Shown: in pieces, positions 1 through 23,200 of the stretch
Numbering within the stretch: the first letter of the stretch is position 1
Layout of the letters: each line of letters opens with the position of its first letter
DNA from: Baffinella frigidus
Taxonomy: Eukaryota > Cryptophyceae > Cryptomonadales > Baffinellaceae
Reading direction: 5' to 3'
Assembly: GCA_026770585.1 (NCBI GenBank)
Contig: MU647310.1
Span: 97,506-122,542 of the forward strand
Length of the DNA: 25,037 bases
Translations under genes and position numbers: made by a program
The notes under the pieces: generated by a model
Databases searched by the model: none
Told to the model about the DNA's origin: nothing
The model's input: only the letters and a program-made list of their open reading frames with translations

Positions 1-47
1 CAGACGGAGGAGCTACGGAAGCGGCACCGGGCGCTGGAGCACCTCCC
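1..47 (+). pseudogene. Truncated copy of gene 1 exon a 5' edge
   Basis: Identical to 149-195 over 47 bases, including the CAG acceptor triplet; similarity stops at base 48. No donor follows, so it cannot work as this exon. It may extend left of the window. Confidence 0.85.
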
Positions 48-151
48 CTACTGTCTAGTCCCTAGTCCCCTAGTCCCTGAACTATCCAATCTAGATTCTC
101 AACACTACACGCTCCGTGCGGTCCTTGACCTCTCGATTGCTCATGGAACAG

Positions 152-17200: not shown

Positions 17201-20200
17201 TCCGGATCAGAGTCACCTCTGCAACTTTTGACCCGACGTTGACTTTGTGGCGCTTCGGCAGCGAATTCCTCGAGGGTGGGCCAACTCTCGCCAGAGTGGA
17301 GCGTGCCCGGATCACGCACCTCAACTTTTGACCGAAGCGTTGACTTTGGCAGCGAATTTCTCGACGGTGGAACAATCGTCAACTTTTGACCGAAGTGTTG
17401 ACTTTGGCAGCGAATTTCTCGATGGTGGACCAGCTCTCGCCAGAGTGGAACGACATGATTTCGGAGCTCTCGACCATTTCGCACCTCCGCCACCCGAACC
17501 TCGTCCTCTTCCTAGGTACGACTCCCATTGGATTCCAATGGAAGTTACTACACCAAGTCAATAAAAATTACTACACGGTTGCTTTAATATTACTAGTAAA
17601 GTACACGGTTGCTTTAATATTACTAGTAAAGTTCTTTACTAGTAATATTAAAGCAACCGTGTAGTAATTTTCATTGAAATCCAGCACACGTGTAACAAAT
17701 TTCAGTGGGACCCGAAATCCAATTTCTCGATGGTGGACCGGATCTCGCCTGAGTGGGACGACATGATTTTGGAACTCTCGACGATCTCGCCACTCGAACC
17801 TCGTCCTCTTCTTAGGCGCGTACCCCCCATTTTAACCTCAGAACATACCAGAATACGTTCGATTTATGCTATCTCAAGCCTTGGTTTTATGCCTAAAATA
17901 GCATATACGCCCTTGTCTTCGGCGTTGGAAGCCATAAGGAAGCGGGGCAGATTCTGCCGCGTCCCGAAATGACATGATTTCGGAGCTCTCGACTATTTCG
18001 CACCTCTGGCACCCGAGCCTCGTCCTCTTCCTGGGTGTGCACCCCCCTTTTAACCTCAACCCCTCCACCCCTCATAGGAAACCTGATTTAATTTAAAATA
18101 TTGGATTTCATTAAAACTTGCTACACGTTTGCTTTAATATTACTAATAAATGACTTTTCTGTGTCGTAAATTGCATGCCCGATTTTTTTAAGTCAAAAAG
18201 TTTCCCTAAACCCTAAACCCCTGAACCCTAAACCCCTAAACCCTAAACCTTAAACCCTAAACCCTAAACCCTAAACCCTAAACCCTAAATCCTAAATCCC
18301 AAACCCAAAGCCTAAAGCCCTAAACCATTAACCATGGGTTTGCGCAAACCCCACCTGACCTATGGCAAAGCCATGCAGAGACTAAGATCGCAAGTTACAC
18401 ACTTAAGATAGCAAAAAACAGTGTTTTGTGATGGCAAAGAGGCAATTTAAATTAAACGTTTTTCCAAATGAAATGCGGGAAGTGGCGACTGCCACACGAG
18501 AATGCCAGAGGGGCCTATTTAAAACCGTTTGCTTTTACAAGTGGAAATTTGTGTAGTAACGTTCGTGGGGTTGGTCACGTAACTCTGCCAAATTAGCACA
18601 GTCACGAGGTTGGTTACGTCATCCTGGTACAAATATTTACAACCCCACATGTAAATAGCACCCTCCAGCATTCTCGAGTGGTGAGTCGGGGGGGTGCGGG
18701 AAGAGTCGCTGATCATCCTCAACAAGTAACGTTGATTCTCACGGGGAAAACACGCCGGAAGTGTTTGAAACTGGAGCCCTTTCCCGCCGCTACAATAATT
18801 TGTTTTGTACCACGAAACACTTTTAGCGCGAACCGTTGCGTTTGAAATCCCCGTTTGTGACCTGGCGTGGTGAACGCAGGCGCGTGCACGCGGGAAGGGC
18901 CGCCACTAAGTTTTTTTGTACCACGAAACACTTTTAGCGTGCAACGTTGCGGTTAACACTTTTAGTGCGAGACGTTGCGTTTAACACTTTTAGCGCGAAA
19001 CGTTGCGCTTGAAATCATCATTTGTGACCTGGTGTGGTGAGCGCAGGCGCGTGCACGCGGGAAGGACCGTTGATCATCCTCAACGAGTACCTTCCGGGCG
19101 GCAACCTCGAGGTCAACACCCCCCCTCAAGAGTCCATCAATTCCTCTGACAGAAGTTCATCGGTTCCCTTGACAGAAACATTCATCTCAGATTCAGGGCG
19201 GCACTGGAGCCATTCTGTACATTTAGGGCTTAAAATTCCTTCGGTGTGTACCAGGAATTAGATGGACGGATATTGCGGTAAATTTTAGTAGAGCACGCCA
19301 CTAAAGTGCAGCAGTTTGATCGTTTCTGCTTGCGGATTTGTACCAGGGGTGCGCCGGAAAGGCTGCCCAGGCCACTCGAGGCTAGAAATGTAACTATTTT
19401 AAAACATGGATTCTTTTACAAGTCAAGAAAACACGAGATGTGTAGTAATTTTCACACAAATAGGGGCGTTTGGTCACGTATCTCAGGGTATACCTTGAGA
19501 TACGTGACCAAACCCGCCCGTGCCTGGTACTAAATGTAACAACCCCACATTTAAAATACTCCCTCTTGTAGCCTCGAGTGGGGACCCTGCGTCGGTGAGA
19601 AGTCAATCTAATGCGGAAACATACTCAACTTAAACCACGTTCTGTGTCATCTGACTCAGTGCCAGCACCCTGCGTCGGTGAGAGGTCAATCTGTTTTCGC
19701 CCTGGCGCTAGAGGAGATTTGTGGGAACGCTCACCCGGCTTCACGCTGTGGGGCGCGAGAGGTGTGAGGACACAGCCAGCTGGTAGGAGGTAGAGTTAGA
19801 ATCCATCCGGAAAATGCTCGTATGAGCGGCCGACACGGAGTGCATTAGTGGCTGGACTGTGTCCGCACAGTCCAGAACGAGCCCGTCTCGGGCCACGAAC
19901 ACATGGTGCTGGACGGAACTTTGCCGTGGCGCTAGACGGGTTCCCGAACCGCCGTCCTCGAATCCTCAAAGCAATCTTGCTCCTTGATAGAACCCCGTCC
20001 CCCCGTTTTTCTCAACGGCATCGCAACGCAGGATTACTTGAATTCCCGGCCGTGAATTCTGAATCGGGAGGGCTTTCTACTTGGGAATTCTTCGAATAAT
20101 GAACAGTGGTGACCATCCGCAGGACTTCTTGAATTCCGAGACCAAAGTCGCCGAGTCAAAAGTCGAGAGTGGAACGTCTCAAAGGCAAACGTGGAACCTC

Positions 20201-23200
20201 CGTGAACTTAAGTAACGGTGGACTCCGCAGGACTACTTGAATTCCCGGCCGCGCGCACGGGGATCCTACAAGGTCAAGCTGAGCGTCGCGCTTGGGTGGG
20301 GGCTGGATCTCGCGCGCGCCATTTGCTATCTCCACAACTGCAACTCTGCGGTGCCCCCCCCCCCTTCCAGGGTTTTAGGGTTTATGGTATGTGGGTTGGA
20401 AGTGTGCAACGGACCGGAGCGCGGGCGGAGAGAGAATAGCTCCAATGTACAGAGTGGATCCAATGAACAGAACGGCTCCATTGCCGCTATGAAGCGTGCG
20501 GAGAGAAAGACTAAACACGTCGCACCCGACCACACATGCCGCCATGAAGGCGGAGAGAAAAACTCAACACGTCAACTTGTACCGCACAGGTGGTGCATCG
20601 AGACTCGAAGCGGGTGATCAATGGCAAACGTTGACGATGCTAACCACGACAACTTGTGCCGCGAAGGTCGTGCACAGCGACCTGCTGCGGTTGACCAATG
20701 GCAAAATTTGACAACGAATGGCAAAAGTTGACGACGCCAGTGCTAACCACGACAACTTGTGCCGCATAAGTCGTCGTCAGCTGTGAGATTTCAGCAGCGT
20801 GAACCCTGGACCCTAACCCTAAACTCTAAACCCTAAACCCTGTGCGCAGGTGGTGCATCGAGACTTGAAGCCGGAAAACCTCCTCCTCGCGGACGACCTC
20901 CGCCTCAAAATCTCCGATTTCGGCCTGTAATACCCCCCCGCCCCACTCGAGGCTAGAAATGTGACTATTTTAAAACAGGGATTCTTTTACAAGTGAAGAG
21001 AGAAAATTTGTGTAGTAAATTTCACACAAGTGGGGGCGTTTTGTCACGTAACTGGGAGAATTCCCCCAGATATGTGACCAAACCTGCCCGTGACTGGTAC
21101 TAAATTTAACAACCCCACATTTAAAATACTCCATCTTCCAGCCTCGAGTGGCCCTCATCGAGAAAACCGTGTAGCCCCAAAATCGTAATGCCCCCGCTCC
21201 TTTTTGAAAATCGTTGAAAAATCGTCAGAACATCGTTTCGCTTTGAGTAAATGGTGTGAGCGGCGCCGCGGCGCAGCAGAAATGTGACGTTGATTTGTCG
21301 CTTCACGTCATCCACTTTTGGAGACAATTGAGGAAATAATTGACTTTGGCGTTAACTTAACTCAGCGGTAGTTCGATCATCCATGCGTGTGTGCTGCCAT
21401 CAGTTCCTCGACAGGAGCATGCGGGCCTTGCCACCCAGCGGACTTCGAAGGGAGTTCGAATAACCCCTAAGCGATAAGACCTAGGACCCTACGGTAGGCA
21501 ATCCGTAGGGACTTAGGGAGGGTTCCTACGGATAAGGTAACGGGAGGTGGCCCGATTTGGGCCGAAAATCCCTTCGTAGCCCGCTGTGTGGCAATCAACT
21601 TCATGTCAAAAGTGTAAAACCAATGTCGGTAAGCTTACACTCCCTTAACAAATACATCATACGGCCGCTCATCTTAACAACACCCACGCTAATAGGGTAA
21701 CGGACTGAAAACCGGGTAGTTGGGACTACGGTATCCCTTCGTAGCCCGCTGTGTGGTTGGGTGCGATGTGAACAGACATTTGGTGGTTTCTCTCGGCAGG
21801 AGCAAGACTCTGATGAAGGAGGATCAGGACAGCACGCAGCCCCACCTCCAGCCAGGTACCCCCCAACCTAACGATACCTCATGTGCGCACTAACCCAACG
21901 ATAGAGCGTTTGCGGTGATTGTTGTCCATTTTGGACGTACGGTTTCCCGGTTTCCCGGTTTTGAAAGGGACTTATAGGACGTGACAAGGGGTTTAAATAG
22001 TACCAAGAGGCGCAATTCTGGTACTATTTAAAATCCTTGTCACGTCCTATAAGTCTCTTTCAAAACCGGAAAACCGGAAAACCGTACGTCCAAAACGGAC
22101 AACAATTACCGCAAACGCTCTACCTCATGTATCGATGGGATTTCCAACGCCTGGGTGTTGGTCACAGACGCAGGGTGCTGGAGCTGAGTAGGAACCCCAC
22201 CGAAAAACGGGAAAATGGGAAAATTGGAGCCACTTTGTCCACTTTTGAGAAATTCATGGTACGAAATTTCTCAAAAGTTGACAAAATGGCTCCAATTTCT
22301 CGATTTTCCATTACTTCCCGTGGCCAGTTGTGCACTTCTCAAGGGCCGATCTCGCAGTCCTGCGGTGTGAGATCGGCCCTTGAGAACAACGGGGAAACGG
22401 CAATCGTGGATCGCAACGACACGTCCAAGTTACTTAGGGTTCAGTGTTCAGGGTTTAAGGTTCAGGGTTCAGGGTTCACACCAAACCGCGTAGAGAGGCC
22501 TGGGCTGGAAACCGCGTAGAGGGTTAGGGCCCCTGAAGGAGTCCCAGGACGGAACGCAGCCCCACCTCCAGCCAGGTGCCCCCCAACCCAACGATATCTC
22601 ATGCCTCAACCCAACGATATCTCATCCCAACCCAACGATATCTCATGGATTTCCAACGCGTGGGCTGGAAACCGCGGAGAGGGTTAGGGCCCCTGAAGGA
22701 GTCCCAGGACGGAAAGCAGCCCCACCTCCAGCCAGGTGCGCCCCAACCCAACGATACTTCTTCTTCTTCTTTCTTACTCTCGACACAGGTCCTAAATGAG
22801 GCCCTTGCGCCTTGAGTTGGGTGATACAAAAGTCTATGCGCCTTAAGAAACGATATCTCATCGTTGGGAAAACGCGTAGAAGGTTAAAGACCCTGAAGGA
22901 GTCCCAGGACGGAACACAGCCTCACCTCTAGCCAGTTACCCCCTAACCCTGAACCGACCTTTTGCAGATCTCATCCCGTCATCCACCCCCCCCCCCCTCG
23001 AAAAGTGGTCATTAAAATTGGTCGTTTTGTGGAAATTGGTCGGAAAATACGGATTTTCCCACAAAATCTGGCCGTAATATCCAGTCTCCGAGCGTTAAAT
23101 TTAAATATTCGGCGGGATTAACTCGACCTTGTAGATCAGAGTCCGAAACGGTTGAGCCAACCAGGCTGGATACGTTTTTCACATACGCACACCGTTGATA

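Follow-up and report, generated by a model that had tools for sequence, protein, structure and literature searches.

Why should the introns of two unrelated genes be littered with broken copies of the edges of their own exons? The question is raised by 25,037 nucleotides (nt) of nuclear DNA from the Arctic cryptophyte alga Baffinella frigidus (contig MU647310.1, positions 97,506 to 122,542; hereafter the window), which carry gene 1 and, downstream of it, a protein kinase gene (gene 2). A sequence-only reading had listed copies at 25 coordinates and had suggested a genome-wide habit, possibly caused by template switching during repair, staggered tandem duplication or reverse splicing. The copies are very likely remnants of short head-to-tail duplications, ranging from tens of base pairs (bp) to a few hundred, that at times spanned exon-intron junctions. 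Their tandem geometry is the part of this explanation held most firmly, as highly probable.

Recovery, orientation and side of the copies

The 17 exons of the window were located by exact match to two Baffinella proteins, P0001 for gene 1 and P0002 for gene 2. The edges of E1, E6, E7 and K1-K8 were adjusted by eye using splice sites and reading frame; P0002 lacks K9 and K10, which were placed by eye; K9 is also covered by an alignment with kinase relatives. An exon-anchored search (Smith-Waterman score of at least 28, within 4 kb, 60-nt exon flanks hidden) yielded 27 copies from the 17 exons, all on the same strand and with at least one copy for 13 exons. Identities range from 78 to 100%. All 12 copies running past a 5' edge are located upstream, including a weak hit at 15136 that is probably due to chance. 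All 11 copies reaching a 3' edge only lie downstream, counting those at 16587 and 17968, which stop at the edge. The others are a near-whole copy of K5 downstream and three copies without an edge (E5, K4, K6). Weak hits with scores of 31-33 were kept in all counts (801, 6022 and 15136 in the window; 17712, X21 and X30 on the scaffold C15 described below). Same-strand copies no more than 3 kb away (score of at least 30) exist for 34% of unmasked 50-mers, versus 0.4% in one shuffled sequence, so that the copies are not a product of chance.

Copies were found again at 24 of the 25 listed coordinates, 23 by the exon-anchored search and one by self-BLAST. The latter, listed at 17353, is the pair 17321-17374 / 17379-17432, which lies inside the hidden 60-nt flank. 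The copy listed at 20667 stayed below the threshold of the exon-anchored search; around it self-BLAST detects a local duplicate, 20620-20671 / 20717-20774. The copies listed at 798 and 6014 are weak (score 31 each). The copies at 4004 and 18696 stop short of any exon edge. Absent from the earlier list were 2264-2332 (5' edge of 2431-2499), the 32-nt array 15982-16096 and the tandem pair 16435-16528 / 16530-16623.

The pattern recurs in a third gene. Scaffold C15 (90,001-120,000) holds a CDC50-like gene and a P4-ATPase gene; no Baffinella protein was among the matches listed for the latter (120 of 6,749), and its 34 exons were located using six homologous proteins. The set leaves aside the CDC50-like exons, a questionable exon at about 20,500 and the part beyond 22,544, in which the intact member and its copies are indistinguishable. 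For five of the 34 exons, which lack a GT close to where the hit stops, the alignment end was retained. The exon-anchored search found 21 copies, all on the same strand, for 14 of the 34 exons (13 without X21, a low-scoring, chance-like hit that carries no edge). Every 5'-edge copy is upstream (11/11, one starting at the edge) and every 3'-edge copy downstream (9/9, three stopping at the edge). The claim that nearly every exon is affected thus describes the window, with 13 of 17, and does not generalize.

A uniform search of both loci (score of at least 30, 40-nt flanks) gave 51 copies, none of them inverted. The 24 copies with a 5' edge only are all upstream and the 16 with a 3' edge only all downstream; 11 carry neither edge and none carries both. 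In the exon-anchored searches of the two loci taken together, 27 distinct exon edges are overrun by a copy, each on the expected side (14 in the window, including K3 via a weak hit, and 13 on C15). As a control, 400 random non-exon anchors were placed in each of the window genic, window intergenic and C15 sequences. Copies with a left edge only were distributed upstream/downstream as 32/28, 95/59 and 38/22, respectively, those with a right edge only as 38/53, 58/65 and 53/22, and inverted copies numbered 155, 152 and 38. Since random anchors give mixed sides, the method does not produce the sidedness of the exon copies. We reason that, if the duplications are tandem, an anchor placed at random can straddle the boundary between two units and so find copies on both sides, which an intact exon cannot.

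The clearest case of a head-to-tail unit is at E4, where 2454-2746 and 2744-3442 align in collinear blocks that agree in 253 of 282 aligned columns. In the second copy, inserts lie at 2788-2957, 2996-2998, 3007-3152 and 3233-3330 (170, 3, 146 and 98 nt), and 11 nt of the unit have no counterpart. The first and third inserts contain hairpin elements (2811-2938 and 3008-3153), and the unit 2454-2746 shows the sites of these two elements without the inserts. The insert 3233-3330 matches part of another hairpin element, 9846-9949 (63 nt, 90%), and is itself no detected hairpin. The order of events at E4 would be the edge copy 2687-2717, then a duplication of about 290 nt that carried it to 3383-3413, then the insertions. 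Other head-to-tail cases are 18786-18902 / 18899-19069 (K6), 16435-16528 / 16530-16623 (K4), 2200-2332 / 2307-2438 (5' edge of E4), 17321-17374 / 17379-17432 (K5) and the 32-nt array at K3. The CCMP2293 genome (534.5 Mb) is a draft with 41.1% repeats (PMC9756366), which might suggest an assembly artefact. This is scarcely credible, as divergence between copies and exons reaches about 22%, and the copies carry separate insertions and follow a strict geometry on two scaffolds.

Sidedness, direct orientation and the strict head-to-tail cases fit staggered tandem duplication, so that one of the three causes proposed from the sequence is supported. A second, reverse splicing, is not supported, given the intron flank in many copies; the third, template switching, may be a minor source. 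The copies might instead be templated insertions, in which an intron break is patched from nearby DNA by synthesis-dependent strand annealing or polymerase theta, the template including an exon edge. In favour of this reading, the copies are fragmented and lie close to their exons, the gaps in many pairs lack an explanation, distance alone fits many of them, and human repair-mediated duplications are similar in size and distance (proximal events with a mean of 162 bp; 753 of 1,136 within 3 kb; PMC2671141). Templated insertion nevertheless appears unlikely. Copies in either orientation would be predicted, as in the human study, which reports an exon copied in opposite orientation (PMC2671141), but 0 of 51 copies are inverted, all 40 one-edge copies lie on the tandem side, and strict head-to-tail cases occur.

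The preferred mechanism assumes that short tandem duplications are widespread in non-coding DNA and cross splice sites by chance. Where a unit starts within an exon and extends past the donor into the intron, the intact exon would be completed by the first copy, and the second would remain downstream as a truncated relic; a unit running from the intron across the acceptor into the exon would leave its relic upstream. Splicing would presumably skip the relic, so that the protein would stay unchanged and the event would be tolerated, whereas duplications wholly within an exon would not be. The relic would then decay and be split by hairpin elements and telomere-like arrays, and fixation would probably be neutral, without function. 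As to the enzymology, two nearby nicks could give a staggered break that undergoes fill-in and end joining. A break with overhangs from two nearby nicks, with both overhangs filled in and joined, is described as yielding a small tandem duplication; for 3' overhangs in mouse and human cells the process is reported to depend largely on Ku, CST and Pol alpha-primase (PMC8355091). Whether fill-in of staggered breaks and end joining served as the repair route in Baffinella is judged to be evenly balanced. The overhangs induced in that study measured 43 and 50 bp, and units of 100-290 nt would therefore need longer overhangs, or slippage or unequal exchange.

Table 1. Positions of exons, exon-edge copies, duplicated units, telomere-like arrays and larger hairpin elements in the window (EAS, exon-anchored search).
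Feature	Positions	Strand	Basis
Exon E1	152..262	+	5' splice edge by eye; P0001 exact match, model starts at 143
E1 5' edge copy, upstream, 100% over 47 nt, truncated by window start	1..47	+	self-BLAST, EAS
E1 3' edge copy, downstream	531..556	+	EAS
Exon E2	1033..1116	+	P0001 match
E2 5' edge copy, upstream, weak (score 31)	801..818	+	EAS
Exon E3, no copy at EAS threshold	1717..1806	+	P0001 match
Exon E4	2431..2499	+	P0001 match
E4 5' edge copy with 60 nt of intron, upstream, within tandem 2200-2332 / 2307-2438	2264..2332	+	self-BLAST, EAS
Duplicated unit comprising 46 nt from E4, the donor and some 245 nt of intron	2454..2746	+	pairwise alignment
Head-to-tail copy of 2454-2746, with two hairpin elements and one further insert interrupting it	2744..3442	+	alignment, self-BLAST
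E4 3' edge copy, downstream, recurs at 3383-3413	2687..2717	+	self-BLAST, EAS
Copy-derived segment, exon in P0001	2715..2798	+	P0001 match
E4 3' edge copy, downstream	3383..3413	+	EAS
Exon E5	4118..4234	+	P0001 match
E5 interior copy, upstream, without edge	3999..4040	+	EAS
E5 3' edge copy, downstream	4356..4379	+	EAS
E5 3' edge copy, downstream	4522..4545	+	EAS
Exon E6	5287..5663	+	3' end by eye; P0001 ends at 5640
E6 5' edge copy, upstream, 78%	5121..5196	+	EAS
Exon E7	6367..6481	+	P0001 match
E7 5' edge copy, upstream, stops 4 nt short of telomere-like array	5871..5913	+	EAS
E7 5' edge copy, upstream, weak (score 31), stops 3 nt short of telomere-like array	6022..6039	+	EAS
Exon K3	16089..16143	+	5' edge inferred, splice site and frame
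32-nt tandem array: acceptor and first K3 bases	15982..16096	+	self-BLAST, repeat scan
Exon K4	16391..16526	+	3' end inferred; P0002 ends at 16435
Tandem copy (period 95) of 16435-16528, 3' part of K4, 97%	16530..16623	+	self-BLAST, chaining
Exon K5	17412..17516	+	P0002 match
K5 5' edge copy, upstream	17253..17303	+	EAS
Intron and K5 5' edge copy, period 58, directly upstream; partner 17379-17432	17321..17374	+	self-BLAST
K5 near-whole copy, downstream, 84%	17721..17816	+	EAS
K5 3' part copy up to edge, downstream, 91%	17968..18036	+	EAS
Exon K6	19047..19111	+	P0002 match
K6 5' edge copy, upstream; unit 18786-18902 then 18899-19069 head to tail	18842..18902	+	EAS, alignment
K6 interior copy, upstream, without edge	18696..18728	+	EAS
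Exon K7	20231..20350	+	P0002 match
K7 5' edge copy, upstream	20027..20052	+	EAS
K7 5' edge copy, upstream	20116..20135	+	EAS
Exon K8	20850..20925	+	P0002 match
K8 5' edge copy, upstream	20584..20614	+	EAS
Exon K9	21801..21855	+	splice sites and frame, read by eye; absent from P0002; kinase-relative alignment
K9 3' edge copy, downstream	22534..22581	+	self-BLAST, EAS
K9 3' edge copy, downstream	22694..22760	+	self-BLAST, EAS
K9 3' edge copy, downstream	22894..22948	+	self-BLAST, EAS
Telomere-like arrays filling introns, mostly C-rich on the coding strand	1541-1699, 4391-4456, 4956-5048, 5917-6002, 6042-6091, 15204-15451, 18204-18326, 24757-24900, 24944-25037		
Long intergenic telomere-like arrays, G-rich on + strand, opposite to most in both genes	8883-9136, 9364-9677, 10857-11302		
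Larger hairpin elements	2811-2938, 3008-3153, 4742-4880, 6148-6344, 6592-6753, 6833-6975, 7317-7469, 7775-7895, 14896-15068, 17558-17677, 21902-22122, 22210-22309, 23348-23499, 24107-24199		

Exon edges and the local background of duplication

Duplication in the window extends beyond exons, and 20 of 39 chained duplicates touch none. Unmasked 50-mers with a direct copy within 1 kb (score of at least 36) amount to 22.3% in the window, 21.3% in C15, 23.1% in C13, 23.7% in C3 and 6.2% in C11; in shuffled sequences the fraction is 0.000. Inverted copies at 0.3-1 kb account for 1.5, 0.4, 0, 6.3 and 0%, respectively. C3 is an exception in that inverted copies exceed direct ones beyond 1 kb (8.8% vs 6.6% at 1-3 kb; 10.0% vs 8.6% at 3-6 kb); in the window at 3-6 kb, inverted copies reach 6.3% vs 2.8% direct. 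The supposed genome-wide habit is borne out for local direct duplication, which was found in four other stretches, three of them at the level of the window and C11 lower, and the exon-edge copies extend beyond the two genes to the P4-ATPase gene. An intergenic tandem duplication at 12804-13197 (self-BLAST, 181-nt offset, 95% identical) repeats CCCCGCAGGGG.

An excess at exon edges is present in the window, and the measures for C15 disagree. Scanned segments with a copy make up 52% at exon edges, 31% in exon interiors, 35% in introns and 29% in intergenic DNA without hairpins (34% with them). Rotating the exon set within the window gave no significant edge excess (p 0.09-0.17). Edge points with a local copy at threshold 30 number 17 of 34 in the window and 21 of 68 on C15, with random intron points at 30% in each; at threshold 36 the values are 15/34 vs 25% and 14/68 vs 19%. 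For 50-mers at edges, in exon interiors and intron-against-intron, the fractions are 51, 31 and 22% in the window and 31, 22 and 20% on C15 at threshold 30, and 36, 22 and 11% and 17, 16 and 8%, respectively, at threshold 44. Copies per anchor, with lengths unmatched, are 0.62 for C15 exons (21/34) versus 0.77 for random anchors (309 same-strand copies/400), and 1.76 for window exons (30/17) versus 0.64 and 1.08 for genic and intergenic random anchors. Judged by the criterion set in the sequence-only reading, under which an equal density in random segments would count against it, the outcome is split. By copies per anchor, exons do not exceed random segments on C15 but do so in the window; by single 50-mers, edges exceed intron-against-intron at both loci.

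Exon-edge specificity is not supported as a general rule, nor is the suggestion that copies are exclusive to exon edges, although an excess persists in the window and, by single 50-mers, on C15. A conserved partner would keep a pair recognizable for longer than two neutral partners would, which could yield a roughly twofold edge excess. By one measure the window excess is more than twofold, so a real preference for exons may exist. A process directed at splice junctions, such as reverse splicing or breaks linked to the spliceosome, or selection favouring decoy sites or spare exons, would account for edge 50-mers exceeding exon interiors and intron-against-intron comparisons at both loci, and for P0001 including a copy as an exon. 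Such a process, like such selection, is improbable. Edges on C15 are at background (31% vs 30%), exons there have fewer copies than random anchors, the rotation test was not significant, the intron flank in many copies shows that spliced RNA was not the source, and pairs with one conserved partner should in any case remain detectable longer.

Several findings weigh against tandem duplication as the origin of the copies. Exons without a copy number 4 of 17 in the window and 20 of 34 on C15. Among the 39 chained window duplicates (offsets up to 1.5 kb), the net gap is at most 15 nt in only 11, 8 of which touch exons, and at most 60 nt in 17; the chaining was greedy and merged unrelated pairs. 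Later insertion and decay probably explain the gaps in the remaining pairs, a few of which were examined closely. The side rule is broken by 1896-1936, a stretch resembling the 3' edge of E5 with adjoining intron, which lies in the second intron upstream of E5; by self-BLAST it matches 4533-4573, a copy with its flank, and not exon E5 itself. The 50-mer edge excess is not predicted by plain random duplication unless conserved partners stay recognizable longer.

Telomere-like arrays and hairpin elements

Telomere-like heptamer arrays constitute 31% of the C15 stretch examined. Of 69 arrays, 66 are C-rich when read on the coding strand; among the introns examined there, 25 of 33 consist of at least 10% C-rich repeat and none of at least 10% G-rich repeat. 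The window has 12 C-rich and 5 G-rich arrays, three of the latter being the long intergenic ones. Counts elsewhere, made without gene directions, are 14/5 in C13, 3/1 in C3 and 0/1 in C11 (C-rich/G-rich). Neither AG nor GT occurs in the C-rich repeat CCCTAAA; both are present in the G-rich one. Selection against stray splice sites would thus explain the C-rich bias, which is derived mainly from one gene. This strand bias in introns may matter more than the exon-edge copies. At 24905-24937, a 33-nt stretch resembling a kinase exon (by eye, it fits the segment after the APE motif) has telomere-like arrays directly on both sides.

As marks of duplication junctions the arrays were rejected, with only 2 of 42 junctions within 5 nt of an array, both at E7. 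The input comprised the edge-bearing copies, 22 of 27 in the window and 20 of 21 on C15; the near-whole copy of K5 was left out, as was a weak hit for K3. Intron-side ends of copies lie at most 5 nt from arrays in 7 of 20 cases on C15 and 1 of 22 in the window, which is taken as an artefact of alignments blocked by masked arrays. Telomere-type 3'-end processing at breaks genome-wide (telomerase, with fill-in by CST and Pol alpha-primase) might conceivably make both the tandem duplications and the arrays; introns would then grow by a one-way ratchet, relics being skipped and only the C-rich sense strand kept. This is doubtful, and the general absence of arrays from the junctions argues against it. 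Interstitial telomeric repeats at sites of break repair (Nergadze et al., 2007; PMC2246262) are comparable in that telomere-like arrays lie inside chromosomes. They differ in that the Baffinella arrays fill introns with a strand bias.

Eighteen hairpin (palindromic) elements of several families were detected in the window. Virus contigs searched with one hairpin-element pattern gave no match.

Gene models, known systems and intron growth

The spliced product of gene 1 has a single database match, the hypothetical Baffinella frigidus protein P0001 (90% identity, 100% coverage), and matched no Pfam family; it may resemble RNF10. The best match of the gene 2 product is Baffinella P0002 (83% identity, 91% coverage), which Pfam assigns to PF07714 (6e-25) and PF00069 (1.5e-22). 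In the C15 sequence (1-972 and onward), the P4-ATPase is preceded by CDC50-like exons in the same orientation. In two proteins of relatives, P0124 and P0132, a CDC50 domain (PF03381) and P4-ATPase domains occur in one protein, i.e., a flippase fused to its subunit.

Residues 122-149 of P0001 correspond to 2715-2798, so that the public gene model takes a copy-derived segment as an exon. In the Baffinella kinase model P0105 the partial segment RHPNLV is present twice, as would follow from an edge copy having been predicted as an exon. The exon in P0001 and the repeat in P0105 may each be artefacts of gene prediction. For the idea that copies provide raw material for exons, the predicted exon in P0001 is thus a candidate instance.

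Short tandem duplications, exon fragments copied into introns, and introns gained via tandem duplication are all known already. End-joining tandem duplications (PMC8355091) are likewise head-to-tail, direct, tens of bp long and accompanied by a gain of DNA. They were induced by Cas9 nickases that left 3' overhangs of 43 and 50 bp in cells of mouse and human, whereas those of Baffinella are inferred from relics, reach units of about 290 nt and occur at high density. Pace et al. (2009; PMC2671141) describe local copies that include partial exon/intron stretches and splice sites; of the 824 proximal events listed for the human genome, 4 donors are of this kind. Unlike here, pairs within 50 bp were discarded there as tandem duplications, and an inverted exon copy is included. 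Intron gain by tandem genomic duplication (PMC3443670) also duplicates splice-site sequence; there, a duplicated exonic AGGT creates a new intron, whereas in Baffinella an existing intron grows. The K4 duplication (16435/16530) is a candidate for such an intron gain. The main text of the genome paper contains no word beginning with "intron" (PMC9756366). A literature search covering titles and the beginnings of abstracts, mostly outside subscription journals, found no description of relics of such density or one-sidedness. New here are the density and the geometry; the type of mutation is known.

Introns could lengthen in this way without a change of the protein, as a duplication across a splice junction would be concealed by splicing. 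The age of a relic should be readable because its exon half retains one conserved partner. A genome dense in relics would allow the rate, size and sidedness of duplications to be measured, as well as how often gene prediction takes relics for exons.

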